A DNA stretch of 64,000 nucleotides from Actinomycetospora cinnamomea. GTDB lineage: Bacteria; Actinomycetota; Actinomycetes; Mycobacteriales; Pseudonocardiaceae. Location: positions 186,001-250,000 of the forward strand of contig NZ_QEKW01000006.1 in assembly GCF_003096675.1 (NCBI RefSeq), read 5' to 3'. This document shows positions 7,579 through 51,785 of this stretch, piece by piece. The notes under the pieces were generated by a model. That model had not been told where the DNA came from and searched no databases. It worked only from the letters and a program-made list of their open reading frames with translations. Numbering within the stretch: the first letter of the stretch is position 1; each line of letters opens with the position of its first letter. Made by a program: the position numbers and the translations under genes.

Positions 7579-10500
7579 GCGGCGCGTGCCGTGTCCGTGG
7601 CCGAGCCCGTCGCGGCGCTGCCCGAGGGTGATGGCGCGCCGCCCACGGCGGCCGGCACGAACAGCGGCCCGAGACCCGGTACGGCGAGGAAGCCCTCGGC
7701 GCCGGCGTAGAGCAGGCCGACCCGCGGCAGGTCCGCCGGGCTGCGGTACGCGAGCACCCGCGGCAGCCACTGCGGGCCGAACTTCGCGTTGAAGTCGTGC
7801 AGCGAGCGGACCTGGAAGAACGGGTTGAGCACGCCCACCGCGCGCCGCGCCAGCTTCTGGGTCGCGGTGAACGGCACGTCCTCGGCGAACAGACGGCCCC
7901 ACATCGCGAAGTTCATCGACAGGCGCGTCACGCCCCGCTCGCCCAGCGCGGTGGCGCTCCTGGCGATGAGGAACTCGGTCATCCCGTTCGGCGCGCCCGG
8001 GTCGTGGCGCATGAGGTCGAGCGTGTAGCCGAAGGTCGTGCCGGTGGCCGGCCCGCCGTGGGCGGGCACGAGGCGCAGGAAGCCGCCGGGGACGCCGTCG
8101 GCGTCGAGGGCGACGCAGAGCAGGAAGTCACTGTTGGCCGCGGAACCGGTGATGTCCTGCGACAGCGACATCGTGAACCCGCGCTCGGGGTTCTTGCCGC
8201 GCCACTTCTCCGAGATCGCGTTGAGGGCCTCCACCAGCTTCGGCGACGCCGCCGATTCGGCGATCATCTGGAAATGGTGGGTGCGCTCGACGCGGCGCAC
8301 GGCGGCCCGCACGCTCTTGCGCTCCCGGCCCTCGAGCGTGAACGACGGGCAGTCGATGATCGCCTCGTCGCCCAGGTAGAACGAGCGGAAGCCACGCGAG
8401 GCCAGCAGGCCGCCCTCGCGGGTGTCCTCCTCGCGGGCGGCCAGGAACGCCGGGGTCCAGGCCCGCCGGCTGCACATGGCGAGGAACTCGTCCACCACCC
8501 GGGGCAGCGACGCCTCGTCGCCGATCGGGTCGCCCGCGGCCAGCGCGTACCCGCCGAGGTAGGTGTAGGCGATCATCGCCCGGCCGTCGGAGGAGAAGAA
8601 GAAGCTCTTGTCGTCGCGCAGCGCGAAGGCCGCGAGGGTGTCCCAGCCGTAGGTGTGCACCAGCGCCTGCGCCCGCGTCCAGTCGTCGCGGGTGTGTGGG
8701 TCGCGGGCGGTCAGCGGCCGGAACAGCAGTATCAGGAAGACGACCAGCCCGACGATCCCCAGCGCGAGCAGCGCCGCGGGGAACGTCGCGGCGAAGCCAC
8801 GGCGCTCGAACGTGTAGGGCCCGTCGATCCCGACGAGGCCGCCGAAGATCGTCTCGAGCCCGCCGAGGAACGTCAGCTCGGGGGTCATCCGCCCGCTCTG
8901 CAGCCCGAGCGACACGAAGCCGAAGGCGAGCACGCACGCCAGGTAGATCGGGACGAACCGCACGAGCCGCAGCAGGGACGGCGGGTCGGCGGGCGCTCGG
9001 AAGTGCCCTCGCGCCACGAGGAGCAGCGCGAGGATGAGCACGCTGATGCCGAGCCCGACCTGGTGCGGCCCCTTGAGCACGTGCGCGACCACGGCCAGCG
9101 CGGAGAGCACCACGGCGACGCGCCAGGCCGCCTGCTTGCGCTTGTTCAGCTGGTCGGCGAGCAGGATCAGCAGCAACCCGATCGCGGCGGAGAGCACGTG
9201 CCCGGTGACCGCGAACCACGGGGGCACGAGGTCCAGGCTCACCCGGTCGCCGAGGCGCTCGTGGACGATCGGGACGTGCACCAGCAGGTGCAGCAGGCCC
9301 GCGAGGGCGGTTAGCCCGGCGACGAGCGTGACGATCCCGGGCCGGCGGGCGGGGCCCTCGTCGTCGGTGGTGACCACCGCCGGGGTCACCGCGGACGCGC
9401 TCGCCCCGGCCGGGACCGCGACCGGCGCCTGCGGGGTCGCGGCCGCGAGCGCCGCGGCGGGCAGCCCCGTGGGCGGCAGGACGGGGCGGTGCGCGCCGCC
9501 GGGTCCGCCGCCGGGCGGCGGGGCGAACTCGGGGCGCAGCGTCGGGAACAGGATCACCTCGCGGATCGAGTCGACGCTGGCCAGCAGCATGACCAGGCGG
9601 TCGATACCGATGCCCAGCCCGCCGGTCGGCGGCATCCCGTACTCGAGGGCGCGCACGTAGTCGAGGTCGATGTCGCCGGCCTCGGGGTCGCCGTTGCGCT
9701 TGGCCTGCGCCTCGTCCTCGAACGCCGCCATCTGCTCGACCGGGTCGTTCTGCTCCGAGTAGGCGTTGCACAGCTCGAATCCGGCGACGATCAGCTCGAA
9801 GCGCTCGCTGTAGGCCGGGTCCTCGCGGTGGGCGCGGGCGAGCGGGGAGACCTCGCGCGGGTAGTCGATGCAGAAGACGGGGCCGACGACGTCGTGCTGG
9901 ACGCGCTCGTCGTAGACCTCCTTCATCAGCCGGCCGGCACCCCAGCCCTGCTCCCAGGCGATGCCGAGCCCGTCGAGGATCCGGCGGGCCTCGTCGATCG
10001 GCATGTCGGGGTGCATCACCGCGCCGGTCCTGTCGGCGATCATGTCGGCGAACCGCTGCCGCGGCCACGGCGGCCGGAGGTCGATCTCCTGGCCCTGGTA
10101 GTGCACGGTGATGTCGCTGTCCTCGGAGCCGAGCGCGGCGCGCGCGGCGGCCACGACCATGCCCTCGGTCAGGTCCATCATGTCGTGGTAGTCGGCGAAG
10201 GCCTGGTAGGCCTCGAGCATCGTGAACTCGGGGTTGTGCCGGGTGTCGACGCCCTCGTTGCGGAACACGCGCCCGAGCTCGAACACCCGCTCCATGCCGC
10301 CGACGATGAGCCGCTTGAGGTGCAGCTCGAGGGCGATCCGCAGGTACATGTCGAGGTCGAGCGCGTTGTGGTGGGTCACGAACGGCCGCGCCGACGCCCC
10401 GCCCTGGATGCTCTGCAGCACCGGGCCCTCGACCTCGGTGAAGCCCACGCCCGCGAGGTGCTCGCGGATGGCGCGGACCGCGGCGTGGCGGATGCGGAAG

Positions 10501-11090
10501 ATCTCGCGGGTGCGCTCGTTGACCTCGAGGTCGGCGTAGCGCTGACGGTAGCGCGTCTCGACGTCGGCCAAGCCGTGATGGCCGCCGGCCGGCGGGCGCA
10601 GGGCCTTCGCCAGCAGCGCGCACTCGTCGACGCGGATCGAGAGCTCGCCCCGGCGGGTGGTCATCACCGTGCCCCGGACGCCGACCCAGTCCCCGCGGTC
10701 GAGGTCGTCGATCGCGGCGTGGGCGTCGTGCCCGACGACGGCGGTGTCGACGAAGAGCTGGATGGTGCCGGTGCGGTCGCGCAGCGTGCCGAAGCTCAGG
10801 CCGCCCTGGCGGCGCAGGCCCATGAGGCGCCCGGCGACGCACACCTGCTCCTGCGTCACCGTGTCCGGCGCGAGCTCGCCGTGGGCGGCGCGGATGTCGG
10901 CCAGGGCCGTGTTCCTCCCGCCGTCGACCGGCCAGCGGTACGGCTCGGTCTCCCCGGCCGCGCGGCGGGCCGCGAGCTTGGCCGCGCGGATGTCCTGTTG
11001 CCCGAGGTGCACACCGTGGGCCTGCGACGGGTCGCTGTCGGGATGGCCGTCCGTGGGCGCGTCGGGGTCGGCGTCCGTGTGGGCGTCCAT
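7575..11090 (-). CDS. lysX: LysX-type bifunctional lysyl-tRNA synthetase / lysylphosphatidylglycerol synthase, inverted domain order
   Basis: LysX charges tRNA-Lys and transfers lysine to phosphatidylglycerol, giving membranes positive charge and resistance to cationic peptides. The 1171-residue length is like mycobacterial LysX, but the order is reversed: LysRS is first (OB-fold, then class II core to about residue 522, with motif 2 around RVFRNEGVDTRHNPEFTMLE and motif 3 GLGIGIDRLVMLL), then a Gly/Pro/Ala linker, several membrane segments from about residue 570, and a DUF2156/MprF transferase domain at the C-terminus (for example WRGKNPERGFTMSL). The ATG at 11090 opens an Asp/His-rich tail of about 25 residues. 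It lies 2 nt after the upstream membrane protein gene. Confidence 0.93.
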   Translation of the reverse strand: MDAHTDADPDAPTDGHPDSDPSQAHGVHLGQQDIRAAKLAARRAAGETEPYRWPVDGGRNTALADIRAAHGELAPDTVTQEQVCVAGRLMGLRRQGGLSFGTLRDRTGTIQLFVDTAVVGHDAHAAIDDLDRGDWVGVRGTVMTTRRGELSIRVDECALLAKALRPPAGGHHGLADVETRYRQRYADLEVNERTREIFRIRHAAVRAIREHLAGVGFTEVEGPVLQSIQGGASARPFVTHHNALDLDMYLRIALELHLKRLIVGGMERVFELGRVFRNEGVDTRHNPEFTMLEAYQAFADYHDMMDLTEGMVVAAARAALGSEDSDITVHYQGQEIDLRPPWPRQRFADMIADRTGAVMHPDMPIDEARRILDGLGIAWEQGWGAGRLMKEVYDERVQHDVVGPVFCIDYPREVSPLARAHREDPAYSERFELIVAGFELCNAYSEQNDPVEQMAAFEDEAQAKRNGDPEAGDIDLDYVRALEYGMPPTGGLGIGIDRLVMLLASVDSIREVILFPTLRPEFAPPPGGGPGGAHRPVLPPTGLPAAALAAATPQAPVAVPAGASASAVTPAVVTTDDEGPARRPGIVTLVAGLTALAGLLHLLVHVPIVHERLGDRVSLDLVPPWFAVTGHVLSAAIGLLLILLADQLNKRKQAAWRVAVVLSALAVVAHVLKGPHQVGLGISVLILALLLVARGHFRAPADPPSLLRLVRFVPIYLACVLAFGFVSLGLQSGRMTPELTFLGGLETIFGGLVGIDGPYTFERRGFAATFPAALLALGIVGLVVFLILLFRPLTARDPHTRDDWTRAQALVHTYGWDTLAAFALRDDKSFFFSSDGRAMIAYTYLGGYALAAGDPIGDEASLPRVVDEFLAMCSRRAWTPAFLAAREEDTREGGLLASRGFRSFYLGDEAIIDCPSFTLEGRERKSVRAAVRRVERTHHFQMIAESAASPKLVEALNAISEKWRGKNPERGFTMSLSQDITGSAANSDFLLCVALDADGVPGGFLRLVPAHGGPATGTTFGYTLDLMRHDPGAPNGMTEFLIARSATALGERGVTRLSMNFAMWGRLFAEDVPFTATQKLARRAVGVLNPFFQVRSLHDFNAKFGPQWLPRVLAYRSPADLPRVGLLYAGAEGFLAVPGLGPLFVPAAVGGAPSPSGSAATGSATDTARAA

Positions 11091-11092
11091 GG

Positions 11093-11881
11093 TCAGCGTG
11101 CTCCCTCCTGCTCGCGCTCCGGGGTCGGGGTCTCGGCGGTGCCGCCGGTGCTGTCCGGGGCGTTCGGCGCGTTCGGGGCGTTCGGCCGGCCCGCGACGGC
11201 GTCGACGACCGCGTCCCAGCGCCGCCGCTCCCGCTCGGGGAAGCGACGCAGGCTGCGCAGCGCCTTGCTCGAGCCCTCGCGGTAGCGCCGCCGCGCCCAC
11301 GGCGAGGTCGGCCGGGCCAGCCGCACGGCACCGACGAGGGCCAGCAGCGGCACGAGCACGCCGAGCAGCCCGAGCAGGAAGCGGCCCTTGAGCAGGGCGA
11401 CGACCGCCAACAGGCCGTTGACGACGATCGTGACGGCGACGATGACGACGCCGTCGGCGGTGTCCGGGTCGAAGGGGTTGGCCCCGAGGACGAGCAGGGC
11501 CATCAGCGCGGCGACGACGAACACCGCGTCGACCGACAGGCGCCCCTCGCGCTCCCAGTAGACGTCGGAGAGGTGCAGCCAGAGCGCGAACTCGTCGAGG
11601 GCCAGGGCGGCGCCCGCCCCGAACAGCGCCGCGAGCACGTACTGCCAGGGCGGGTCGGGCCGGTAGGTGAACTCGCCGACGCCCGCGATCAGCATGGCGA
11701 AGATGCCCCACACCAGGTGGTGCAGGTGCACCCCGCCCACCGACTGGTTCCGGAACGGGCCCTTGCCGGCCCGGATGAGCCGCACGACCACCCGGGTCGC
11801 GAGGAAGACGACCACGAACGAGCCGAGCATCCACGCGGCGGCGACGCGGTCCTCGAGGTCCAGGGTGAAGGTCAGTTCCAC
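11093..11881 (-). CDS. Integral membrane protein of unknown function
   Basis: A 262-residue protein with about six hydrophobic segments, the motif GGVHLHHLVWGIF around residues 45-57, a conserved-looking acidic/Trp stretch LDEFALWLHLSDVYW, and a basic C-terminal tail ending in NAPNAPNAP repeats and Glu/Arg residues. I do not recognise a characterised family; the HLHH motif suggests metal or haem ligands but this is a guess. The GTG start at 11881 overlaps the end of the EamA gene by 10 nt, and lysX follows after 2 nt, so it is part of the same transcription unit and may act with LysX at the membrane. Confidence 0.8.
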   Translation of the reverse strand: MELTFTLDLEDRVAAAWMLGSFVVVFLATRVVVRLIRAGKGPFRNQSVGGVHLHHLVWGIFAMLIAGVGEFTYRPDPPWQYVLAALFGAGAALALDEFALWLHLSDVYWEREGRLSVDAVFVVAALMALLVLGANPFDPDTADGVVIVAVTIVVNGLLAVVALLKGRFLLGLLGVLVPLLALVGAVRLARPTSPWARRRYREGSSKALRSLRRFPERERRRWDAVVDAVAGRPNAPNAPNAPDSTGGTAETPTPEREQEGAR

Positions 11882-12756
11882 GCCGACTCCACGGGCTCGC
11901 GCAGCGGGGTGGCGGTCGCCGCCGACGACCGGGAGAGCGCGGCGGTGGCGGCCACCATGAGGACGACGAGCACGCCGATCAGGCCCCACTCGAGGCCGTC
12001 GGCGCGCACCTGCTCGCCGAGCACGACGACGCCGAGCACGGCCGCGACCACCGGCTCGCCCACCGTCACCGCCGGCAGCGAGGCGGCGAGCGGGCCGGCG
12101 CCGAACGCGGCCTGCTGCAGCAGCGTGCCGCCGACGGCCGCGCCGACGAGCGCCCACGTCTCCCACGAGGTGAGCAGCACGACCGGGCCCTCGCCCAGCA
12201 GGTCCACCACCGACTTGGTGAGGGCGGCCGTGAGGCCGTAGAGCAGGCCCGTGCCCACGGCGAGCAGCGCCGCGCGCCGGGGGCCGCGTCGGCGACCGGC
12301 GAGCACGATGCACGCCACGAGCACGAGGGCGAGGCCGACGAGGGCGGGGAGCCAGGTCGCGAACGGCGCCTGGTCGACCCCGGCGGTCGGCTCGCCCACG
12401 ATCACGAACAGGGCCAGGGCGGCGACCAGGACGACGGCCCAGCGCACCTCGGCGCGCCCGATCCGGCGGCCGTTCAGGCGCGCCTCGAGGGGCAACGCGA
12501 AGAGCACCGTGGTGACGAGCAGGGGCTGCACGAGCAGCAGGGCCCCGACGCCGAGGGCCGCGGCCTGGACGAGGAAGCCACCGGTGTCGCCCGCGGTGCC
12601 CGCCCACCAGCGCGGCGAGCGCACCAGCCGGGCCAGGAGGCGCCCGCCGCGGGCCTCGTCGTCGGGCACGTCGGCGGCCGCGCCGCGCTGGACCACCGAG
12701 GCGATGGCGAAGAGCAGGGCGGCCAGGATCGCCAGCGCGCCCGCCAGCACGGTCAC
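11872..12756 (-). CDS. EamA/DMT-family transporter
   Basis: A 294-residue protein with about ten transmembrane segments in two EamA-like halves, typical of drug/metabolite transporters. The second half contains GEPVVAAVLGVVVLGEQVRADGLEWGLIGV, a common DMT pattern (E-P-x-x-A...LGE). Substrate unknown. It is the first gene of the minus-strand operon leading to lysX; the start is GTG at 12756, and the divergent acyltransferase gene starts 282 nt away. Confidence 0.8.
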   Translation of the reverse strand: MTVLAGALAILAALLFAIASVVQRGAAADVPDDEARGGRLLARLVRSPRWWAGTAGDTGGFLVQAAALGVGALLLVQPLLVTTVLFALPLEARLNGRRIGRAEVRWAVVLVAALALFVIVGEPTAGVDQAPFATWLPALVGLALVLVACIVLAGRRRGPRRAALLAVGTGLLYGLTAALTKSVVDLLGEGPVVLLTSWETWALVGAAVGGTLLQQAAFGAGPLAASLPAVTVGEPVVAAVLGVVVLGEQVRADGLEWGLIGVLVVLMVAATAALSRSSAATATPLREPVESAWN

Positions 12757-42444: not shown

Positions 42445-42933
42445 TCACAGGCTCGCGGGCGGCGGGGGCGGCGCCGCGCCGCCGTCGGCGTCGGTGTCGG
42501 CGCCCGGCAGGTGCACGTCGGTGATGACGATGTTGAGCTCGACGACGGTCACACCGGCGATCTCCTCGACGGCCTTGGGCACGTGGCGGCGCAGCGCGCG
42601 GACCAGCTCCCGCGCCCCGACCCCGTACTCGATCTCCACGTCCAGGCCGATGCGGGCCTGCTGGTCGGCGAGCTCGACACGCACACCCGCGGTGTTCTCG
42701 GTGTTGCCCGTCAGCGTCTGGCGGACCGCGCCCACGGCCCGCGACGCGCTGCCCCCGAGGGCCACCACACCGGGGATCTCGCGGGCCGCGTAGGCCGTCA
42801 CCTTCTGCACGACCGACGGCAGGACCTCGGTGGTGCCCTCGACGGTGGTCGGGTCGCCGGCGGCCCCGCTGACGGAGGTGGCGGTCGGCGTGGGGCTGGA
42901 GGGCGTGCTGCTCGGACGCTGAGCGCTGGTCAT
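42445..42933 (-). CDS. Asp23/Gls24-family protein at the end of the gas vesicle cluster
   Basis: A 162-residue protein with a disordered Ser/Thr/Pro-rich N-terminus, then an Asp23/Gls24 domain (VVQKVTAYAAREIPGVVALGG, with RIGLDVEIEYGV and VTVVELNIVITDVHLP), and a Pro-rich tail. Asp23 proteins associate with membranes or envelope stress; the role here is unknown. It lies 52 nt downstream of gvpK on the same strand, so it probably belongs to the gas vesicle operon, and it converges with rmlC. Confidence 0.82.
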   Translation of the reverse strand: MTSAQRPSSTPSSPTPTATSVSGAAGDPTTVEGTTEVLPSVVQKVTAYAAREIPGVVALGGSASRAVGAVRQTLTGNTENTAGVRVELADQQARIGLDVEIEYGVGARELVRALRRHVPKAVEEIAGVTVVELNIVITDVHLPGADTDADGGAAPPPPPASL

Positions 42934-42985
42934 GGACCCCGAGTACCCCGCGGCACCGGAGGGGAGTCCGCCCGATCGGCGCTGC

Positions 42986-43282
42986 TCAGCGCTCGCGCGG
43001 CAGCAGCGGGCCGAGCGGCCCGAGATCCAGGTTGAGGTCGGCCGGCGTCAGCCCGAACTGCTCGGTGAGCTCGTCCATCGCCTCGGCCAGCAGCATCAGC
43101 GACGTGCCGAGGTCCTCCTCCTCCTGCTCGGTGAGGTCGCCCTGCTCGACGCGCCGGATCGCCTGGCGCTCCATGAGCTGTCGCAGCAGCTCGACGATCG
43201 TGAGCACCAGCTTCATGAGGTCGCGCCGGACCTCGTCCTTGTCGATCTCGATGCGCGGACCGGTGGACGGGCGCTCAGCCAT
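42986..43282 (-). CDS. gvpK: Gas vesicle protein GvpK
   Basis: A 98-residue accessory gas vesicle protein. The GvpK core is RIEIDKDEVRRDLMKLVLTI, LLRQLMERQAIRRVEQGDL and EELGTSLM-like LGTSLMLLAEAMDELTEQFG. GvpK is conserved in gas vesicle clusters and needed for vesicle formation. ATG 43282 overlaps the gvpS end by 8 nt. Confidence 0.9.
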   Translation of the reverse strand: MAERPSTGPRIEIDKDEVRRDLMKLVLTIVELLRQLMERQAIRRVEQGDLTEQEEEDLGTSLMLLAEAMDELTEQFGLTPADLNLDLGPLGPLLPRER

Positions 43283-43541
43283 CGCCGGCCTCCAGCTCCC
43301 GGTCGGCGCGCTCGGCCCGCGCCGCGAGCGTGCCCGGCCGCTCGACGGGTGCGATCGACGTGATGAGGGCACGCAGCGAGATCCGGACGAGGTCGACGCC
43401 GGCGAGCGAGATCGTCAGGTCCCCCACCAGCACGACCCCGCCCGCGAGGAGGCGGTCGAGCAGGTCGACGAGCGCGACCTCCTCGTCCCCGAACAGCGAG
43501 GTCGAGCGGGGCGTCAGCTCGAAGGACTCCGGCTCGCTCAC
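43275..43541 (-). CDS. gvpS: GvpS-like protein (GvpA/GvpJ superfamily)
   Basis: An 88-residue protein with the GvpA-type core in degenerate form: VALVDLLDRLLAGGVVLVGDL and TISLAGVDLVRISLRALI match the alpha-beta-beta-alpha fold of the structural proteins. Position between gvpL and gvpK corresponds to gvpS in streptomycete clusters. GTG 43541 overlaps the gvpL stop by GTGA. It is likely a minor structural or nucleating component. Confidence 0.82.
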   Translation of the reverse strand: MSEPESFELTPRSTSLFGDEEVALVDLLDRLLAGGVVLVGDLTISLAGVDLVRISLRALITSIAPVERPGTLAARAERADRELEAGDG

Positions 43542-44293
43542 GGGTCGGCCTGGGCGAACGAGTAGGGCACCCACGGCCCGGTGACCTCGACGCGGATGCG
43601 GGGGTGCTCGGCCAGGGAGCCGACCAGGGCCGCGAGCTCGCCGGCGCGCTCGACGGGCACGAGGTAGGCACGGTTGAGGACCATCGGCTCCGAGGTGCCC
43701 GAGAGCGTCGCGTCCTGCAGACGGTGGCTGCGCGAGGCCGCCGCCAACTCGGTCACGGCGGTGTCGACCTGCTCGGCGGCCTCGCGGGCCTCGTCGAGCG
43801 CGCTGTCGCCCTCACGCAGCGCCTGGCGGCGACGACGCAGGTACTCGGCGCCCGAGGCCGCCCGCTCCGTCGTCGCGGTGCTGCTCCGGCCGCCCTTGCG
43901 CGCGTAGACCTTGAGGCCGAACTCGGCGCGTCCGGCGAGCCGGTCGAGCACGGCGTCGAACGTCGCGCGGCCCTCGTCGAGGACGGCGCGCACCCGGTCG
44001 TCGTCGAAGTAGACCGTGGCCAGCGCCAGCGGCGCGACGAGGTGGTCGCGACCCAGGGTGTCGACCACGTGGTGGTGCGCCCGCGCGGTGGCCGCGAGCC
44101 ATTCGAGGTCCTCGAGACGTTCCTCCAGGGCCCGCTCCTCGAACTCGGCGCGGTCGGCGTCGCTGACCACCGCGCCCAGCCGGCCGACCGCCACCACGCG
44201 CACCGGCCGGCCGCCCACCCCGCCGAGCCCGCGCACGACGGCAGGGTCGACGTCGCGCGCGATCGCGTAGACGTACGTCAGCGTGTCGCTCAC
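43538..44293 (-). CDS. gvpL: Gas vesicle protein GvpL (GvpL/GvpF family)
   Basis: A 251-residue GvpL/F protein: TYVYAIARDVD at the N-terminus, VAVGRLGAVVSDADRAEF, and a C-terminal LNRAYLVPVERAGELAALVGSL with WVPYSFAQ, the usual GvpF/L ending. Members bind GvpA and assist assembly from the cytoplasm. GTG 44293 overlaps the gvpJ stop by GTGA. A second family member, gvpF, lies at 46085. Confidence 0.9.
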   Translation of the reverse strand: MSDTLTYVYAIARDVDPAVVRGLGGVGGRPVRVVAVGRLGAVVSDADRAEFEERALEERLEDLEWLAATARAHHHVVDTLGRDHLVAPLALATVYFDDDRVRAVLDEGRATFDAVLDRLAGRAEFGLKVYARKGGRSSTATTERAASGAEYLRRRRQALREGDSALDEAREAAEQVDTAVTELAAASRSHRLQDATLSGTSEPMVLNRAYLVPVERAGELAALVGSLAEHPRIRVEVTGPWVPYSFAQADP

Positions 44294-44832
44294 CCGCTCG
44301 TCCTCCGCTTCCGCCGCGGCTTGACGGGCTCCGGCTCGGGCTCGGGCTCGTCCTCCTCGACGTCCTCCTCGACCCGGTCGTCGAGGTCGTCCCCGCCGGC
44401 CTCGTCCTCGTCCTCGAGCTCGTCCGCCGCGTCGGCATCGGCCGACCCCTCGCCGTCCCGACCGCGCTCGAGGGCCGCACGGCCGTCGCCGCCCTCCAGC
44501 GCCTCGAGCCGCTCGCGCAGGCGGCGGTTCTCCTCCTCGAGCTCGGCGTGCCCGGAGGAGAGCGTGGGGTCGCGCTCCCACCAGTCGATGCCCATCTCCT
44601 TGGCCCGGTCGACCGAGGCCACGACCAGCCGCAACTTGATGGTCAGCAGCTCGATGTCGAGCAGGTTGACCTGGATGTCCCCCGCGATCACGATCCCCTT
44701 GTCGAGGACCCGCTCGAGGATGTCGGCGAGGTTCGTGCCGTCGCCACCGCCGCCGCTCCGGGCCGGCTGGCGACCGCCGGCCTGGTTGGGGGCGGGTGGC
44801 ATCTGCCCGGTCCAGCGCACCGGGTCGCTCAT
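44290..44832 (-). CDS. gvpJ: GvpJ-type gas vesicle protein with charged tail
   Basis: A 180-residue member of the GvpA superfamily. The core, LADILERVLDKGIVIAGDIQV with LLDIELLTIKLRLVVASVDRA, occupies residues 34-80. It is followed by a helical ELEEENRRLRERLEALEGG segment (coiled-coil-like), a long Asp/Glu-rich disordered stretch and a basic end (KPRRKRRTSG). GvpJ is a minor tip component or nucleation factor in other systems. ATG 44832 has GAGAGGG upstream. The acidic-then-basic tail is much longer than in a usual GvpJ. Confidence 0.85.
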   Translation of the reverse strand: MSDPVRWTGQMPPAPNQAGGRQPARSGGGGDGTNLADILERVLDKGIVIAGDIQVNLLDIELLTIKLRLVVASVDRAKEMGIDWWERDPTLSSGHAELEEENRRLRERLEALEGGDGRAALERGRDGEGSADADAADELEDEDEAGGDDLDDRVEEDVEEDEPEPEPEPVKPRRKRRTSG

Positions 44833-44864
44833 GGTGTGTCCCTCTCGTGTGGTCCCCCCGACCG

Positions 44865-45851
44865 TCACTCGTCGTCGCCGCGTCCCCGGGTGTAGCGCTT
44901 GGTGCGTTGGTAGCTGATGAGCTCGCCGTCGGTGTCCATCTCCGCCTCGTAGATGGCGAGGATGTCGCTGGTCTCGGGGATCTTGCGGCTCTCGACCACC
45001 TCGAGCGACACGACCCAGCCGTCGTCGGTGCGCCGCACCGACGTGACCGCCTCGCTCTCCTTGCCGCTCATCTCCTGCACCTGCTCGGCGGCCCACCGCG
45101 CGATCTTGCGCGCGGGGATGCGCTTGGGCGTCTCGGGCTCCGGCTCGGGTTCCGGCTCGGGTTCCGGCTCGGGTTCCGCGGTGTCCTCCGGCTCGTCCAG
45201 GTCCTCGGCCTCGTCATCGAGGTCCTCGGCCTCGTCGTCGACGTCGTCGACGTCGTCGAGGTCCTCGGGCTCGTCGTCGACGTCGTCGGGCTCGTCGTCG
45301 AGGTCCTCGTCGAGATCCTCGTCGGCCTCGGCCGCCGGCGGCTCCGGCGCCGGCTCCTCCTCACGGCGGCGCCGGCGGCGGGGCCGCTCCTGGCCCCCGG
45401 CGTCGGCCGGCGCGTCGTCGGCGTCGCCGCGACGACGGCGTCGCGGGCGTTCCTGGTCGTCGGAGCCACTCGACCGACGTCGGCGGGGCCGCTCCTGGTC
45501 GGCCCCGGAGCCCTCGTCGGACCCCGCGGGACGGCGCTTCCGGCGCGGCCGTTCCTGCTCACCCTGCTCGGTCGCCCGGCGCCGCCGGGGTCGTTCCTGC
45601 TCCGGGGCGTCGGAGCCCTCCCCGGACCCCTCGGCGCGACGGCGACGGCGCGGGCGCTCCTTCTCCCCCGCGCCGTCACCGTTCGACCGCTCGGCGGCCG
45701 CCTCGTCCTCGGTGGTGTCCTCGGTGGCGCGACGGCGGCGACGCGGACGCTCCTGGTCGCCGGCGCCCGCGTCGCCCGACGTGCGGCGGGACCGGCGCTT
45801 CGGCCTCTCCCCGCCGTCGTCGGTCTGCTCGCGGTCGGCGGAGCGGGTCAC
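44865..45851 (-). CDS. gvpO: GvpO with a large charged low-complexity N-terminus
   Basis: A 328-residue protein. The last ~85 residues (from IPARKIARWAAEQVQEM to YQRTKRYTRG) are a GvpO domain, which is about the whole protein in other organisms. The first ~240 residues are disordered: about eight copies of a basic QERPRRRRR-like unit separated by acidic/Gly linkers (residues ~15-165), then a strongly acidic Asp/Glu block, then EPEPEP repeats. GTG 45851 overlaps the gvpG stop by GTGA. GvpO is essential for vesicle production in haloarchaea; the extension is unusual and would make the protein a block polyampholyte. Confidence 0.87.
   Translation of the reverse strand: MTRSADREQTDDGGERPKRRSRRTSGDAGAGDQERPRRRRRATEDTTEDEAAAERSNGDGAGEKERPRRRRRAEGSGEGSDAPEQERPRRRRATEQGEQERPRRKRRPAGSDEGSGADQERPRRRRSSGSDDQERPRRRRRGDADDAPADAGGQERPRRRRRREEEPAPEPPAAEADEDLDEDLDDEPDDVDDEPEDLDDVDDVDDEAEDLDDEAEDLDEPEDTAEPEPEPEPEPEPEPETPKRIPARKIARWAAEQVQEMSGKESEAVTSVRRTDDGWVVSLEVVESRKIPETSDILAIYEAEMDTDGELISYQRTKRYTRGRGDDE
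45142..45177. repeat. Three 12-bp tandem repeats in gvpO
   Basis: GGCTCGGGTTCC is repeated three times without change (45142-45177), encoding part of the EPEPEP stretch. Perfect short repeats in coding DNA can vary in number between strains. Confidence 0.8.
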
Positions 45852-46081
45852 CCGCCACCCCCGCCCACGAGGCGCTGCAGCAGGACTTCCTGCTGCTCGT
45901 CGCGCTCCTCCTCGGTGATCTCGCCGCGATCGAACGCCGCGTCCAGCTCGTCGATCTGGGCGCGGATCACGCCGGGGTCGTTCATCTGGTGGTCGACCTG
46001 GTCGGAGATCTTCTCGCCCACCCAGACGACCCCGCGGACGGGGGCGAGGGGCAGCAGGAGCAGCTCGGTGAAGAAACCCAC
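45848..46081 (-). CDS. gvpG: Gas vesicle protein GvpG
   Basis: A 77-residue accessory protein: MGFFTELLLLPLAPVRGVVW and then EITEEERDEQQEVLLQRL, the GvpG pattern. It is required for vesicle assembly in other systems and interacts with GvpF/L. It starts 3 nt after the gvpF stop and its end overlaps the gvpO start. Confidence 0.92.
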   Translation of the reverse strand: MGFFTELLLLPLAPVRGVVWVGEKISDQVDHQMNDPGVIRAQIDELDAAFDRGEITEEERDEQQEVLLQRLVGGGGG

Positions 46082-46084
46082 GCG

Positions 46085-46894
46085 TCAGACCTGCGCCTCG
46101 TCGGGAGCCTCGAACTCGGGGAGGAAGTCGAACGCCGCGGTGGGACCGATGAGGCGCAGCTCCACCCGGCCCGACCAGGCGTCGCCGAGGTCGTCGACCG
46201 CGCGTTCGAAGTCGCTGCGGTGGTCGGTGCGCACGAGGAACGCCACGTGCACGGCCCCGTTCTCGCCCCCGACCTCCTTGACCTCCGTCGCGACCGCGTA
46301 CTTCGACAGGGCGTCGACGCAGGCCTGGGCGTCCTCGGCACGGATCTGGTCCATGGCCTGGGAGATGGCCTCGCCGAGGCGGATGCGGTCGTAGTAGCTG
46401 GCGTCCTCGTCGACGCCCGCGATCTTCTCCCGCATCTGCTGGATGCGCGGGTCGGCCTCCACGATGCGGGTGAGGATGACGTCCTGGTCGTAGTCGCCCC
46501 GCAGCCGGAACTCCTGGTGACCCTCGAGCTGCTCGAGCGCGCGCACGAAGTAGTCCTCGTGCGGCGCCAGCAACTCCTCGGCCACGGCGTCGTCGTCGGT
46601 GACGACGGCACCGAAGCGCATCGGGAGCACGGGGGTCTCCTGCGCGATCGCGTTGAGCACGGCCTCGTGGGCCATGAGGTCGCGCCGGGTGCCGAGCGCC
46701 CGGGCGGCCGACACGTCACTGACCACCGCGGCCAGCCGACCCTCGGTGACCAGGCCCAGCTGCCCGCCGTCGTCGTCGGCGGGGATCGGCTCGAGGCCCT
46801 CGGGGATCCGGACACCTGCGGGCACGATCCCGTAGATGTAGGAGCCGCGGGTGGTGCCCTGCTGCTGCTGTTGCGACGACTCGGTCTGGGTCAC
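46085..46894 (-). CDS. gvpF: Gas vesicle protein GvpF (GvpL/GvpF family)
   Basis: A 269-residue GvpF: YIYGIVPAGVRIP at the start, LAAVVSDVSAARALG, HEAVLNAIAQETPVLPMRFG (the central family motif) and the C-terminal HVAFLVRTDHRSDFERAV with GPTAAFDFLP. GvpF adds GvpA to the growing vesicle. A short Gln run (TESSQQQQQGTT) opens the protein. GTG 46894 has GGGAGGAG just upstream. It sits directly downstream of gvpA. Confidence 0.93.
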   Translation of the reverse strand: MTQTESSQQQQQGTTRGSYIYGIVPAGVRIPEGLEPIPADDDGGQLGLVTEGRLAAVVSDVSAARALGTRRDLMAHEAVLNAIAQETPVLPMRFGAVVTDDDAVAEELLAPHEDYFVRALEQLEGHQEFRLRGDYDQDVILTRIVEADPRIQQMREKIAGVDEDASYYDRIRLGEAISQAMDQIRAEDAQACVDALSKYAVATEVKEVGGENGAVHVAFLVRTDHRSDFERAVDDLGDAWSGRVELRLIGPTAAFDFLPEFEAPDEAQV

Positions 46895-46904
46895 GACTCC
46901 TCCC

Positions 46905-47285
46905 TCACGCCTTCTCGCGACGGCCCTGGCGCTCTTCGCGCACTTCGTCCCACTTCTCCTTGCCGGCCTCGAGCACGCCCTTGGTCTTGCCCTTGGCCCC
47001 ACCCTGGGTCGTGTTCTCGCTGATGTCGCCCATCACCTGCCCGAGGTCCTTGCCGCCCTTGGCGTGCAGGTCCAGCCGGTTGGTGGCCTCCGCGAACCGG
47101 AGATAGGTGTCCACGCTGGCCACCACGATGCGTGCGTCGATGGTGAGGATCTCGATCCCGACCAGGGAGACCTTGACGAAGGCGTCGATGACGAGGCCCT
47201 TGTCGAGGATCAGGTCGAGCACCTCGGCGAGCCCGCCCTGCGGGTCCTTCTGCACGCCTCCGCCCTGCCGTTGGCTGACGGTCAC
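46905..47285 (-). CDS. gvpA: Gas vesicle structural protein GvpA
   Basis: The main wall protein of gas vesicles. The GvpA core lies at about residues 18-66: [20 protein letters not shown] then [20 protein letters not shown] and DTYLRFAEA, near-canonical. A charged tail of about 60 residues ([10 protein letters not shown]... to [11 protein letters not shown]) follows, common in actinobacterial GvpA. GTG 47285 is used because the residues MPFLVAQ upstream do not fit and GAGAGGGGG is nearby. It is preceded by a perfect 15-bp inverted repeat. Confidence 0.95.
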
Positions 47286-47315
47286 CGTGCCCCCTCTCTG
47301 TGCGACGAGGAATGG

Positions 47316-47347
47316 CACCGGACCCCGGCGGGCGCCGGGGTCCGGTG
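47316..47347 (-). promoter_or_regulatory. Perfect 15-bp inverted repeat upstream of gvpA
   Basis: CACCGGACCCCGGCG (47316-47330) and CGCCGGGGTCCGGTG (47333-47347) are exact reverse complements around a GG centre (effective loop 6 nt or so). The hairpin lies 30 nt before the gvpA start and 41 nt after the end of the upstream gvpZ-like gene. There is no T-tract. It may partly terminate the upstream transcript or stabilise the 5' end of a gvpA mRNA. Confidence 0.75.
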
Positions 47348-47388
47348 ATGCGACGGTCGGCCCGGCTGCTGCTCAACCGGGGAGCGGG

Positions 47389-48657
47389 TCAGGCCGGGGT
47401 GCGCTGGCGCCGCGAGCGGCGCCGGGGACGCTCGTTGTCGTCCTCCTCGTCGGCGGCCTCCTCGTCGGTGGCCTCCTCGTCGACGTCCTCGTCGGCGGCG
47501 AGGTCGTCCTCGTCCGCCTCGTCCTCGAGGTCGTCCTCGTACTCGTCGTCCTCGGCCTCGTCGTACTCGTCCTCGGCCTCGTCGAGGTCCTCGTCCTCGG
47601 GAGCGAGGTCCTCGTCCTCCTCCGCGGCGGGTTCCTCGTCCTCGAGGTCCTCGTCGGCGAGCTCGGAGTCCTCGTACTCGTCCTCGAGGTCCTCGCCGCC
47701 GCCCTCCTCGGCCGCCCGCTGCTCCTCCTCGAGGGCCTCCTCGTGGGTCTTGACGACCTCGCTGTCACGGATCTCGCCGCGCCAGCCCTCGAGTTCCTCG
47801 CGGTTGATCAGCGTGTCCATCATGACGTGGCGGCAGAAGTGCTTGAACTCCAGACGCGCACGCCGGCCGACCGCCCGCCACAGGTTCCCGGTCTTCTCCA
47901 TGAAGCCCTGGGGGTAGTACTCCATGATCAGGACGATGCGGGTGAGGTTCGGCGCGAGCTCGCTGAACGTCACGATCCCGTCCGCGTGGCCCTTCGCCCC
48001 CGACGAGACCCACAGGATGTGGCTGTCGGGGACCTGCTCGCGGATCGTGGTCTCCCACGAGCGCCGCGACCAGAAGACCTTGGCGGTCCAGGTGACCTTC
48101 TCGTCGGACTCCTGGTTGACCGTCTCGACCTTCTTCATGAACGACGGGAAGTCCGCCATCTGGGTCCACTGGTCGTAGGCCACGCGCAGCGGGACCCCGA
48201 CGTCCTGGACCTCGTAGATGTTCATGAACTTGAACTTGCCGCGGCCGCTGCCCCCACCACCACCGCCGCCGGAGCCCTCGCCCTCGCCCTCGTCCTCGGA
48301 GTCGTCACCGCCGCCGAGACCGATCGCGTCGGTCACCTTGTCCTTCACGGCCGACAGCCCCCCCTTGAGCGCCCCGCCGACCCCGCTGCCGCCCTGCAGG
48401 GCGGAGGAGCCGCCGCCGAGCGCCGCGCGGAGGCCCACCCCGCCGTTCTCGGCGACGTCGGTGAGCCGGCCGGTGAGGCCCTCGACCTGGTCGAGCGCCG
48501 CGTTGACGGCCTTGTCGGTGGCCGCCTTGAGCAACGCCTGGGCGGCCTGCTTGAGGCGATCGACGGGGAGGACGTCGGAGACACCCCCGCCGTCGCCGTC
48601 GCCCCCGGGCACCTGGCCGTTGGAGGCGGCGCGCGAGTCGGTGGCGGATTCAGTCAT
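47389..48657 (-). CDS. SRPBCC-domain protein of the gas vesicle cluster (gvpZ-like)
   Basis: A 422-residue protein. After a Gly/Ala-rich N-terminus with an amphipathic helix (VDRLKQAAQALLKAATDKAV), an SRPBCC/polyketide-cyclase-like domain runs from about residue 144 (NIYEVQDVGVPLRVAYDQWT) to 300 (VTWTAKVFWSRRSWETTI, IMEYYPQGFMEKTGN). The last ~100 residues are almost only Asp/Glu and end in ERPRRRSRRQRTPA. Streptomycete gas vesicle clusters carry a comparable gene (gvpZ). The SRPBCC fold binds hydrophobic ligands; role in vesicles unknown. It overlaps the upstream gene by 8 nt. Confidence 0.8.
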   Translation of the reverse strand: MTESATDSRAASNGQVPGGDGDGGGVSDVLPVDRLKQAAQALLKAATDKAVNAALDQVEGLTGRLTDVAENGGVGLRAALGGGSSALQGGSGVGGALKGGLSAVKDKVTDAIGLGGGDDSEDEGEGEGSGGGGGGGSGRGKFKFMNIYEVQDVGVPLRVAYDQWTQMADFPSFMKKVETVNQESDEKVTWTAKVFWSRRSWETTIREQVPDSHILWVSSGAKGHADGIVTFSELAPNLTRIVLIMEYYPQGFMEKTGNLWRAVGRRARLEFKHFCRHVMMDTLINREELEGWRGEIRDSEVVKTHEEALEEEQRAAEEGGGEDLEDEYEDSELADEDLEDEEPAAEEDEDLAPEDEDLDEAEDEYDEAEDDEYEDDLEDEADEDDLAADEDVDEEATDEEAADEEDDNERPRRRSRRQRTPA

Positions 48658-49654
48658 CGCGCTTCACCGCACCCCGGCGCGAGCCCGAGCCCGCGGTGGC
48701 GCGGCTGCGCGAGCCACCCTCCGAGGACGAGCGCGACCGCCCGCCCGACCCGGACGAGGACTTGCTGCGCGTGCCACCGCTGCCGTTGCGGGTGGTCGTG
48801 GACGACCCGGCGGCGTCGGACGAGCCCGACGACGAGCGCCGCCGACGTTCCTGGCCGCTCGAGGACTGGCCGGTCGAGGACTGGCCGCTCGAGGACTGGC
48901 CGCTCGAGGACGAGCTGCGCGAGGAACGGCGCCGCGAGCCGGCCGCGCGCGAGGGCGCCTCCTCGGCCCCCTCGGCCTCCTCGGCCTGCTCGGACTCGTC
49001 GGTCTCACCCTCGTCGGAGGTGGCCGTATCGGTCTCCTCCTCGTCGGTCACCTCGTCGTCGGCTGCCTCGTCGGCTGCCTCGTCGTCCCCGACGTCCTCG
49101 GCGGGCTCGTCCGCGGGCTCCTCCTCGGCCGACGCGGAGCGGCGACCCCGCTTGCGCAGCCGGCCCGCCGCGGTGTCCACCGCGCTGCCGACGCCGCTGC
49201 CCACCTGGCCGGCGGCACCACCGACGGCGTCGCCGGTGGTCGAGGCGGCGTCGGTGACGGCCCCGCCGGCCTGGCCGGCCGCGTCACCGGCGGCTCCCGC
49301 CGTCTGGCCCGCGGCCTGCCCCGCGGCGCCGACCGCCTCTCCGGCGGGCTTGCCGAGGTTCTCGACCCGGTTGACCAGGTTGTCGGTGAGCGCCTCCATG
49401 CGTGAGCTCGCGATGGCCAGCGCGGCGTCCTTGCCGGCCTCGAGCAGCCGACCGCGGACGGCGGTGTCGAGCTTCTGGAGCTCGGGCGACGCCTGGATCA
49501 GCTTGGAGGCCTGGGCGAGCAACTGGGCGGGATCGGTCGGGAGCTTCTTCCCGGCGAGCGCGCCCCCCAACATGATGGCGAACTTCATCTTCTTGGTGCG
49601 ACCCAAGAGATATCCGCCGATGACCGCGAGGGCCAATTTCAGGCCTGCCGGCAC
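48650..49654 (-). CDS. Ser/Arg-rich gas vesicle cluster protein (gvpY-like)
   Basis: A 334-residue protein, first of the gas vesicle operon. An N-terminal hydrophobic helix (PAGLKLALAVIGGYLLGRTK) is followed by a helical region (DPAQLLAQASKLIQASPELQ) and amphipathic Gly/Ala repeats (GAAGQAAGQTAGAAGDAAGQ). Then comes an acidic block, and a Ser/Arg/Gly-rich tail with four SSGQ units. GTG 49654 has GGAGGT 6 nt upstream. Corresponds in position and character to gvpY of streptomycete clusters (moderate confidence). Function unknown. Confidence 0.75.
   Translation of the reverse strand: MPAGLKLALAVIGGYLLGRTKKMKFAIMLGGALAGKKLPTDPAQLLAQASKLIQASPELQKLDTAVRGRLLEAGKDAALAIASSRMEALTDNLVNRVENLGKPAGEAVGAAGQAAGQTAGAAGDAAGQAGGAVTDAASTTGDAVGGAAGQVGSGVGSAVDTAAGRLRKRGRRSASAEEEPADEPAEDVGDDEAADEAADDEVTDEEETDTATSDEGETDESEQAEEAEGAEEAPSRAAGSRRRSSRSSSSSGQSSSGQSSTGQSSSGQERRRRSSSGSSDAAGSSTTTRNGSGGTRSKSSSGSGGRSRSSSEGGSRSRATAGSGSRRGAVKRDD
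48851..48910. repeat. Four 15-bp tandem repeats in the gvpY-like gene
   Basis: CTGGCCGCTCGAGGA occurs four times in tandem at 48851-48910 with one base change in the second copy. It encodes the SSSGQ units of the Ser-rich tail and could change copy number by slippage. Confidence 0.8.
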
Positions 49655-50100
49655 CGTGCACCTCCGAACGGATGGTCCTCCTGTGCGGTGGACCACAGCC
49701 CGCCGCTGACGGACCGGACATTACATCTCGCTCTCCGTGAAAGCGCTAGACCGGGAAGATCAAATGTCGAGTCGGCCGTCGGGCGCACTTCTCGATCAAC
49801 TGGCCGCGGGGTCCGCGTGCGCATTCGGACGCCATTCTTCTGCCTAATCATTCTGCGCCGTTCGCGTCGTGCTCGATACGAGTTTCGCCGAGATGTCGGT
49901 GCGCCGAATGCCCGAGGACGGATCGCGCGCTGCTGGACGACCCGGGGACCCCCGCGTCCCTGATCGAGTTCTACAGGCCCGTGGCCTGCATCACAAGGGT
50001 CTGACCCTGCGTCCGAAGCGCGCGAGACCCGCTGGGCGGGACGGCCGAACGCCCCACGGCCCGATGCCCGGAGACGTTGGCCGGCGGAGGACGGGACGCT
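49655..50100. other. 446-bp intergenic region, probable gas vesicle operon promoter
   Basis: No convincing gene. Part of it (about 49720-49900) is visibly lower in GC than anything around. On the minus strand TAATGT (49718-49723) fits a -10 about 60 nt before the gvpY-like start; the -35 is not clear. CAGGCC/GGCCTG (49974-49988, 3-nt loop) may terminate the winged-helix gene upstream. Confidence 0.45.
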
Positions 50101-50715
50101 TCAGCCCTCGTCGACGGCCCGCACGACGGCGTCGACCGCCCGGCGCAGGGCCCGCCACTCGCGGACGCGGGCCCGCTCGGCCCGCCGGCCGGGCTCGGTG
50201 AGGCGGTAGCGCCGGCGTGTCGAGCCGCTGTCGTGCTCGACGAGTCCGTGCCGGGCGAGGTGGTGCACGGTCCGCACGATCGTGGTGGGCGGCGGGGTGA
50301 GCCCGCCGTCGCTGTCGCGCTGCAGCCGCTCGGCGATCTCGCGGCCGTCGGCCGGCCCGTGGCGCAGCGCGACGAGGACGAGCAGCTCGACGTGGTCGCG
50401 GGACCCGAGGCGGGCCGGGCCCCAGCGGCGGTTCCCGGTCCCGGTCGTGGCGGGCCTGTTCGGCACCGCGGGACGACGCCGGGGCTCGCGCCGCGCGGGC
50501 ACGTCGGCGGCGACGTCACCGGGCTCCTCGGCGGGCACCTCGACCTCCGCCTCGGCCTGCCCATCGGCCCCCGCCTCGAGCTCTCGTGTCGCGGCCGCGT
50601 CCTCCTCGTCGCGCCGCCGGCGCGGCGGCAACAGCCCGCGCAGGCTGGCCGCGGCGGGCCGGCCGAAGGCGTCGCTGAGGTCGTGGGCGGTCGGCGGCTG
50701 GGGCTCGGCGGTCAC
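50101..50715 (-). CDS. Winged-helix (PadR/MarR-like) protein next to a ParA gene
   Basis: 204 residues. The first ~100 are disordered and charged (Arg-rich PPRRRRDEED, then Glu/Ala-rich). The C-terminal half is a winged helix: LGSRDHVELLVLVALRHGPADGREIAERL, LTPPPTTIVRTVHHLARHGLVEHD and RRRYRLTEPG as wing, PadR-like. Expected to bind DNA. Its start overlaps the ParA stop by GTGA with AGGAGG upstream, so the two are co-translated. It could repress the gas vesicle operon, or act as DNA-binding partner of the ParA protein in place of a ParB. Confidence 0.78.
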   Translation of the reverse strand: MTAEPQPPTAHDLSDAFGRPAAASLRGLLPPRRRRDEEDAAATRELEAGADGQAEAEVEVPAEEPGDVAADVPARREPRRRPAVPNRPATTGTGNRRWGPARLGSRDHVELLVLVALRHGPADGREIAERLQRDSDGGLTPPPTTIVRTVHHLARHGLVEHDSGSTRRRYRLTEPGRRAERARVREWRALRRAVDAVVRAVDEG

Positions 50716-51785
50716 GAGGTGGCCTCCTGCTCGGGACGGGCGGCGGCACGCTCCTCGGCCTCACGCAGCAGCGTGAGGAGCTCGACGCCCAGGTCGCGGT
50801 AGTCACCGGCGACGCTGGCGGCGGTCGGGGACAGGCGTCGCCCGCCGTTCTCCTTCTGGCCCGCGCGCAGGGCCGCCCACCACGCGGGCTGGGCCGCGAC
50901 CTCCTGCTCCAGCTCGTGGGCGAGCTTCCCGAGGCGTCGCGCGTCCTGCGCGGTGCGCTCGGCGTGGCGGATCGTGGTGGTGAACAGCGGCGAGTGCCCG
51001 CCGAACGCCCGCGCGACGGCCTCGCGGACCTCGGCGTGCACGACGCGCGAGCGCGAGCCGGTCGCGAAGAGCACGGCCCCGAGCAGCCCGAGCTGCGGGT
51101 TGAGCTCCCGGGCCAGGGCGAAGCGCTCGCCGACCAGCCGCATGCCGACGAGACCGCCGCCGTCGGACTTGGTGGGCATGAGCACCCAGCGGGCGGCGGT
51201 GAGCGCGAGGTCGGTGAGGATCGTCGTCTCGGGCGGGCAGTCGACGAAGACCAGGTCGTAGTCGCCGGCCACGGGCGCGAGCACCTCGGCGAGCGCGCGG
51301 AACGCCTCCCGCCCACGCTCCTGGACCCGGGACACCATGAGCGGCACCAGGTCGACCAGCCGCGCCCCGCCCGGCACGACGTCCAGCCCCGGCCGCACGC
51401 CCTCCACGGGACGCAGCGGCGTACCCCCGACGAGGCTCAGCAGCAGCCCCGCACCGTGGTCGTCGGCCGGGCCGTCACGGAAGCCGAGGTCGTCGGCGAG
51501 GTTGGCCTGACGGTTGAGGTCGACGAGCAGGCAGCGGTAGCCGGCGGCCGCGAACTGTCCGGCGAGGTTGGCGACGATCGACGTCTTCCCGACCCCGCCC
51601 TTGTCGTTGACCATCGCGATGGTGCGCGCGAGGGCGTCGCCGTCGGACTCGGGGGCGAGCTCGGGGGCCGGTGCGGGCACGGGCTCGGGGACCGGGCGGA
51701 CCGGTTCGGCCGCCCGCCCGGTGCGGTTGCGGGTGCCCCGGCGGCCGGTGGCGCTGCGGGCGGTGCGGCCCGCCGGTCCGGTCAT
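50712..51785 (-). CDS. ParA/MinD-family ATPase linked to gas vesicle cluster
   Basis: 357 residues. After an Arg- then Pro-rich disordered N-terminus (~55 residues), a ParA domain begins: deviant Walker A NDKGGVGKTS with Lys62 and Lys67, DLNRQANLADDLGF switch I, and VFVDCPPETTILTDLAL Walker B. ParA ATPases pattern plasmids, chromosomes or protein cargos over the nucleoid. No parB gene or parS-like repeats are nearby; the partner gene is the winged-helix protein. A ParA homologue is also encoded in the Serratia gas vesicle cluster, so vesicle positioning is a reasonable hypothesis here. Confidence 0.87.
   Translation of the reverse strand: MTGPAGRTARSATGRRGTRNRTGRAAEPVRPVPEPVPAPAPELAPESDGDALARTIAMVNDKGGVGKTSIVANLAGQFAAAGYRCLLVDLNRQANLADDLGFRDGPADDHGAGLLLSLVGGTPLRPVEGVRPGLDVVPGGARLVDLVPLMVSRVQERGREAFRALAEVLAPVAGDYDLVFVDCPPETTILTDLALTAARWVLMPTKSDGGGLVGMRLVGERFALARELNPQLGLLGAVLFATGSRSRVVHAEVREAVARAFGGHSPLFTTTIRHAERTAQDARRLGKLAHELEQEVAAQPAWWAALRAGQKENGGRRLSPTAASVAGDYRDLGVELLTLLREAEERAAARPEQEATS

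Follow-up and report, generated by a model that had tools for sequence, protein, structure and literature searches.

A ParA-type ATPase and a PadR winged-helix protein with an N-terminal peptide also found in plasmid partition partners are encoded beside gas vesicle genes in Actinomycetospora and Pseudonocardia

Among described systems, the closest to the locus reported here are the gas vesicle (gvp) clusters of the Streptomyces coelicolor type, plasmid partition cassettes, the AspA-ParB-ParA system of the Sulfolobus plasmid pNOB8 and the McdA-McdB system of carboxysome positioning. The locus, in Actinomycetospora cinnamomea, places a gvp cluster next to genes for a ParA-type ATPase and a PadR-type winged-helix protein; it lies within a stretch of 64,000 nucleotides (assembly GCF_003096675.1, NZ_QEKW01000006.1, positions 186,001 to 250,000), hereafter the window. 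The core gene set of S. coelicolor-type clusters, gvpOAFG-JLSK according to the part of PMC9501494 available to us, is that of the window as well. A ParA in the Serratia vesicle locus, mentioned in a preliminary description of the window, could not be confirmed, the Serratia gene list in the same part of that article containing none. The term "ParA" is absent from the accessible main text of PMC4982088, PMC11778176, PMC6617781 and PMC5601083 and from the accessible part of PMC12081810 on gvp clusters, and the term "gas vesicle" is absent from the accessible main text of PMC10241942 and PMC8262871, which deal with ParA/MinD cargos and carboxysome positioning. No paper on a gas-vesicle ParA stood among the matches listed in our literature search, and none joined gas vesicles with the ParA family, with McdB, or with MinD and carboxysome terms, subscription journals lying mostly outside the search.

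The preliminary description had placed a translationally coupled ParA and winged-helix pair just upstream of the gvp genes, on the same strand and without a ParB, and this arrangement proved correct. The parA gene (50712..51785, minus strand) encodes a deviant Walker A ATPase (Pfam AAA_31, 2e-24; PHROG ParA-like partition protein, 6e-35) with the three motifs of the ParA type, NDKGGVGKTS (Walker A, with the signature lysine), VDLNRQ (A-prime) and VFVDCPP (Walker B), and its closest solved relatives in the PDB are Soj/ParA proteins. The same three motifs were present in all 30 loci of this ParA clade that were checked, the Walker B of one (L058) having escaped the regular expression and been read by eye. 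Downstream, padR (50101..50715, minus strand) overlaps parA by 4 bp and encodes a protein with a PadR regulator domain (PF03551, 33.2 bits against a cut-off of 27). We looked for a nearby ParB and rejected it: the only ParB_N match found in the genome (E 0.001) belongs to contig C4, not to C6, which carries the window. The locus thus lacks the adjacent ParB of a ParABS system.

The PadR protein, of 204 residues, falls into two parts. Residues 106-203 (50107..50400, minus strand) form the confident part of the structure model, a PadR-type winged helix, whereas the first ~100 residues were modelled at low confidence and without secondary structure. It is in this first part that we found a putative ParA-docking peptide, HDLSDAFGRPAAASLRGLLPPRRRR (50602..50688, minus strand). 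What is new here is that PadR has this N-terminal peptide, with an L-x3-FG motif, in common with the ribbon-helix-helix (RHH) proteins that partner related ParAs, some of them encoded on named plasmids. The motif occurs in 12 of 13 aligned PadR partners (the alignment was made without L043 and L050) and in all 8 aligned RHH partners, against a rate of at most 0.002 in shuffled sequences; counted by locus, all 12 Actinomycetospora copies have it, as do 15 of the 18 in Pseudonocardia. A search of the A. cinnamomea genome with the docking peptide gave a best match at 2.7e-16 and the next at 0.046, and no convincing second protein with the motif appeared among the 150 of 432 candidates scored. Because the Pfam RHH matches of the plasmid-type partners were all below threshold, the RHH assignment relies on a structure model; the predicted fold has two beta-alpha-alpha units and matches chain E in entries for the F relaxosome, a chain that we take to be TraY. 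At one locus (L063) no intact RHH partner was obtained. Given the peptide shared with the plasmid RHH partners, PadR looks like a ParA partner whose DNA-binding domain has been exchanged. The winged-helix protein, earlier suggested as a possible DNA- or cargo-adaptor, thus gains better support as a partner of ParA, while a role in positioning would be a further step.

The pair recurs beside gvp genes within the genus. All 18 Actinomycetospora genomes carry gvp, and 11 carry a ParA of the window's clade, in 12 copies; a PadR winged helix follows 11 of these, and in the twelfth (L035) the PadR is cut by the contig end. In 9 of these 11 genomes, the distance between ParA and a PF00741 match in the main gvp cluster is at most 4 kb. 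In one genome (G189, locus L044) the genes parA (9953-10912), padR (10909-11517) and gvpA (11514-11906) form a head-to-tail series of overlapping genes; this gvpA is an orphan, the main gvp cluster lying on another contig. Of the two ParA copies in another genome (G193), one runs into the end of its contig and the other (L043) is on a 9.6-kb contig without gvp. The ParAs of L043 and L035, which belong to the clade and come from the same metagenome-assembled genome, are 77% and 90% identical to that of the window; they may represent a duplicate or mixed strains.

A ParA of the clade was also found in 18 of 62 Pseudonocardia genomes (E <= 6.5e-127), followed by PadR in 17. Linkage to the main gvp cluster was seen in 5 of the 18, the nearest gvpA-type match being 1.0 to 3.4 kb away, and in three layouts: the pair is upstream on the same strand in G205, as in Actinomycetospora, downstream on the same strand in G208, and convergent to gvp in G163, G217 and G167. 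In a further genome (G162), ParA lies 3 kb from an orphan gvpA. Under a uniform model, the chance of main-cluster linkage in 5 of the 17 gvp-bearing genomes is ~5e-10. G217 and G167, as well as G205 and G208, are close in the ParA tree, and we therefore count about three linkage events rather than five; in G205 and G208, members of the same three-row clade (97/91), the pair nevertheless flanks gvp on different sides. Of the 93 rows extracted, 67 entered the tree after removal of duplicates and of pieces no longer than 180 aa; L036, L037 and L046 are missing from it. Genomes with this ParA have gvp in 17 of 18 cases versus 22 of 44 without it (Fisher p 0.001, kinship not controlled), and the more distant Pseudonocardia ParAs show no gvp linkage (0 of 8, six of the eight with gvp). 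The preliminary description had held that homologues lying far from gvp in most relatives, or a ParB next to them, would refute a positioning or regulation system. The former is the case in Pseudonocardia, where 11 of 18 copies are unlinked, and not in Actinomycetospora; as for the latter, no ParB adjoins the ParA.

In Pseudonocardia the pair may have a companion. An acidic, low-complexity protein is encoded just upstream of parA in 13 of the 18 loci, as called by motif and composition within 2.6 kb upstream of ParA (G164, with 0.77 kb of contig there, was left unjudged). An N-terminal DISGYI motif was found in 10 of these genes by regular expression, and LRxLLxPRxR-like peptides in 11. The PadR of all 13 acidic-gene loci is without the LRGLL half of the docking peptide, which is kept in 12 of 12 Actinomycetospora copies and was seen, among the five other Pseudonocardia loci, in G163 and G217; by sequence, it is as if the LRGLL element had moved from PadR to the acidic protein. 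A weak docking-motif match (E 0.22) lies inside the acidic gene of G208. The one acidic protein checked had no Pfam match, and a search with the first 60 residues gave no homologue among 47 candidates. Apart from the main gvp cluster, Pseudonocardia G168 has a gvpA-gvpO mini-cluster followed by a gene for an extremely acidic protein of 535 residues (L198:7473-10281).

The sequence data support a shared ancestry of ParA-PadR and plasmid partition systems. On this basis we propose, tentatively and at slightly less than even confidence, that a plasmid-style partition pair has been domesticated to position or pass on gas-vesicle cargo, a GvpA body. Having settled on the chromosome, the pair would now act on this cargo: ParA would cycle between an ATP-bound, nucleoid-associated form and a released one, and PadR, as its cognate partner, would contact and stimulate it through the N-terminal peptide. 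The C-terminal winged helix, occupying the place that the tandem RHH domain has in plasmid partners, would hold the cargo, be it nascent vesicles, the GvpA body or gvp-locus DNA, and the acidic Pseudonocardia protein, with its LRxLLxPRxR-like peptide, could be a second adaptor. The sequences show the ParA motifs, the pairing with PadR, the common peptide, the differing C-terminal domains and the recurrent linkage to gvp; from these we infer that the peptide stimulates the ATPase, in which direction the domains were swapped, and that vesicles are the cargo. Gas-vesicle material is favored as the cargo because of the several linkage layouts and the overlapping parA-padR-gvpA genes. A more specific version, a dedicated vesicle segregation system in which the docking peptide was kept, the centromere-binding domain was swapped for a vesicle-holding one and a probably disordered acidic co-adaptor was recruited in Pseudonocardia, is possible but doubtful.

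Several observations weigh against domestication for gas-vesicle cargo. Seven of the 18 Actinomycetospora genomes have gvp but no ParA of the window type: five show no ParA at E 1e-40 (two of these five are 59% and 84% complete), G188 has an RHH-type ParA and G118 a distant ParA only (45%). In the regions read from G042, G075, G098, G118 and G188, gvp stands without this ParA, its neighbors in G042 including gatB- and gatA-like genes as judged by eye. In Pseudonocardia, 11 of the 18 copies show no linkage to gvp or sit on a separate contig, several of the contigs being short, and one genome (G173) has ParA but no gvp. G161 has ParA without a downstream PadR; its locus (L047) has the acidic gene, and since PadR is absent there, this ParA may work with the acidic protein alone. 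Among the gvp-linked Pseudonocardia loci, G217 retains only the LL half of the peptide, without FG, and G167 has neither half; moreover, a peptide model built mainly on Actinomycetospora strongly detected PadR in only 1 of 9 Pseudonocardia genomes. PadR itself has the usual PadR fold in the model, a point in favor of DNA binding. As to the cargo, no vesicles were seen for the S. coelicolor gvp cluster according to the accessible text of PMC4982088; the part of PMC9501494 available states that Streptomyces forms gas vesicles.

The link is also narrow. In a sample of 296 genomes from the class, gvp was present in 70 and a ParA at E 1e-50 in 8, with only the window's own exceeding 50% identity (6 candidates scored per genome). 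Unlike the window, 20 sampled gvp regions from outside the Pseudonocardiaceae (17 genera, 7 family codes; 12-20 kb each, one, L226, starting at a contig end, and two, L213 and L231, showing a partial gvp set) contain no such ParA and no ParA-PadR pair, which likewise counts against our proposal and led us to reject a broad actinobacterial gvp-ParA link. A MinD-like P-loop gene in L215 was also rejected, being, by eye, of another type, several kb away and beside unrelated genes. In the samples examined the link is confined to the Pseudonocardiaceae and looks like a lineage-specific addition; the seven Actinomycetospora genomes and the 20 outside regions without it mean that gvp function does not generally depend on the window-type ParA. 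Of the earlier idea of a positioning or regulation system beside gvp, then, the linkage stands as real and repeated, but it is limited to a lineage, and positioning may be its function.

The best-surviving alternative is that PadR is a transcription factor of gvp, perhaps also of parA, tuned by the nucleotide state of ParA, so that linkage reflects control in cis. FleN tunes FleQ and Soj tunes Spo0J, and the best structural matches of the winged helix are PadR repressors. The ~0.45-kb gap between padR and the first gene of the gvp cluster, gvpY, is consistent with such control: it has no obvious gene and carries a conserved promoter-like block, ATTTGATCTT..GGTCTAGCGC..TGTAATGTCC (49716..49765, minus strand), seen in an alignment of the window and 7 close relatives. 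The pattern had no match in the three clusters without ParA that were checked, in L045 or in the Pseudonocardia loci. Because of this block, parA-padR is probably transcribed separately from gvp; a scan for sigma-70 promoters and terminators found nothing. However, the conserved N-terminal part of PadR is the peptide shared with plasmid partition partners, the pair is also found convergent to or downstream of gvp and distant from it in many Pseudonocardia, and no PadR-like operator palindrome stood out, as judged without an operator model. We consider regulation in cis unlikely, though it deserves serious attention.

Less probable still is DNA segregation, in which PadR would bind a chromosomal or ex-plasmid centromere, as AspA does for pNOB8, and gvp would be a mere landing site. 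The window's two intergenic stretches have no iterons or clear centromere-like repeats, only short two-copy matches, and the several gvp layouts together with the overlapping parA-padR-gvpA genes are hard to explain by chance of landing. That the neighborhood is accidental or inherited, with no functional tie to gvp, is very improbable: NhaA and other flanking genes are indeed also conserved at the locus within Actinomycetospora, but ParA and PadR, and not NhaA, are shared with the Pseudonocardia gvp loci. When the flanks of 9 loci from Actinomycetospora were compared with those of 5 from Pseudonocardia, the common families were gvp, ParA, PadR and three low-scoring matches.

The gvp cluster of the window is, as the preliminary description had it, a complete actinobacterial set on the minus strand, the A, F, G, O, J, L, S and K genes standing together by their Pfam matches (across the locus, three to PF00741, two to PF06386, and GvpG, GvpO, GvpK, Asp23, Polyketide_cyc/SRPBCC, AAA_31 and PadR). 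Read along that strand, the order is NhaA, parA, padR, the gap, gvpY-like, SRPBCC, gvpA, F, G, O, J, L, S, K and Asp23. The gvpY-like gene (48650..49654) was assigned by its open reading frame and conservation; the frame extends to 49696, a GTG at 49654 has a ribosome-binding-site-like GGAGG, and the protein has no Pfam or NCBIfam match at E 0.01. There follow an SRPBCC, gvpZ-like gene (47389..48657; PF03364, 3.8e-16), gvpA with a C-terminal extension (46905..47318; PF00741 and PRK09368, 156 bits), gvpF (46085..47002; PF06386, 9e-64) and gvpG (45848..46081; PF05120). The next gene, gvpO (44865..45851), has a long, charged and repeat-like N-terminal region of ~235 residues, and its family match (PF05800, residues 237-326) covers only the last 90 residues. 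Then come gvpJ (44290..44862; PF00741, 3.5e-16), named by position and by its best, sub-cut-off NCBIfam match to GvpJ, gvpL (43538..44299; PF06386, 5e-54), gvpS (43275..43574; PF00741, 5e-14), named by position, gvpK (42986..43372; PF05121) and, at the end of the cluster, an Asp23-family gene (42445..42933; PF03780, 4e-19). Far from this cluster, the same genome has an orphan gvpA (C1:128530; L196:8492-8863), and similar orphans occur in several relatives.

If ParA-PadR does act on gas-vesicle cargo, the consequences reach beyond this locus. From a ParA pair tied to gvp one would expect a cargo that is discrete and countable, which bears on the role of the actinobacterial gvp clusters; vesicle segregation, if true, would imply a discrete GvpA body in these soil actinobacteria, one in need of positioning or inheritance. 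PadR further suggests a route by which ParA systems could change cargo, the docking peptide being kept and the domain behind it exchanged.

Set against known systems, the window pair resembles type Ib-like plasmid cassettes, in which a ParA is encoded with a small RHH partner. On the Pseudonocardia plasmids NZ_CP011869.1 and NZ_CP013855.1 the ParAs are 60.7% and 58.6% identical to that of the window over 80% of the query, and the partner gene likewise lies directly downstream and has the N-terminal L-x3-FG (loci L201 and L202, taken to be these plasmids). The plasmid partner is a tandem RHH protein, however, while that of the window is a PadR winged helix with no RHH domain, and the window pair is chromosomal, beside gvp and without repeats recognized as a centromere. 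In the AspA-ParB-ParA system of pNOB8, a PadR-fold protein goes with a ParA as in the window (according to the accessible part of PMC9178275); there, ParB is a separate adaptor, whereas the window has no third gene among parA, padR and gvpY and no ParB_N on the contig, it is the winged-helix protein that carries the putative docking peptide, and the pair is not on a plasmid. The window ParA is not of the McdA type, having the signature lysine that is absent from McdA (same part of PMC9178275), and its partner is a winged helix, unlike McdB; the likeness to carboxysome positioning by McdA-McdB is that of a ParA-type ATPase tied to a protein organelle, with a partner other than ParB.

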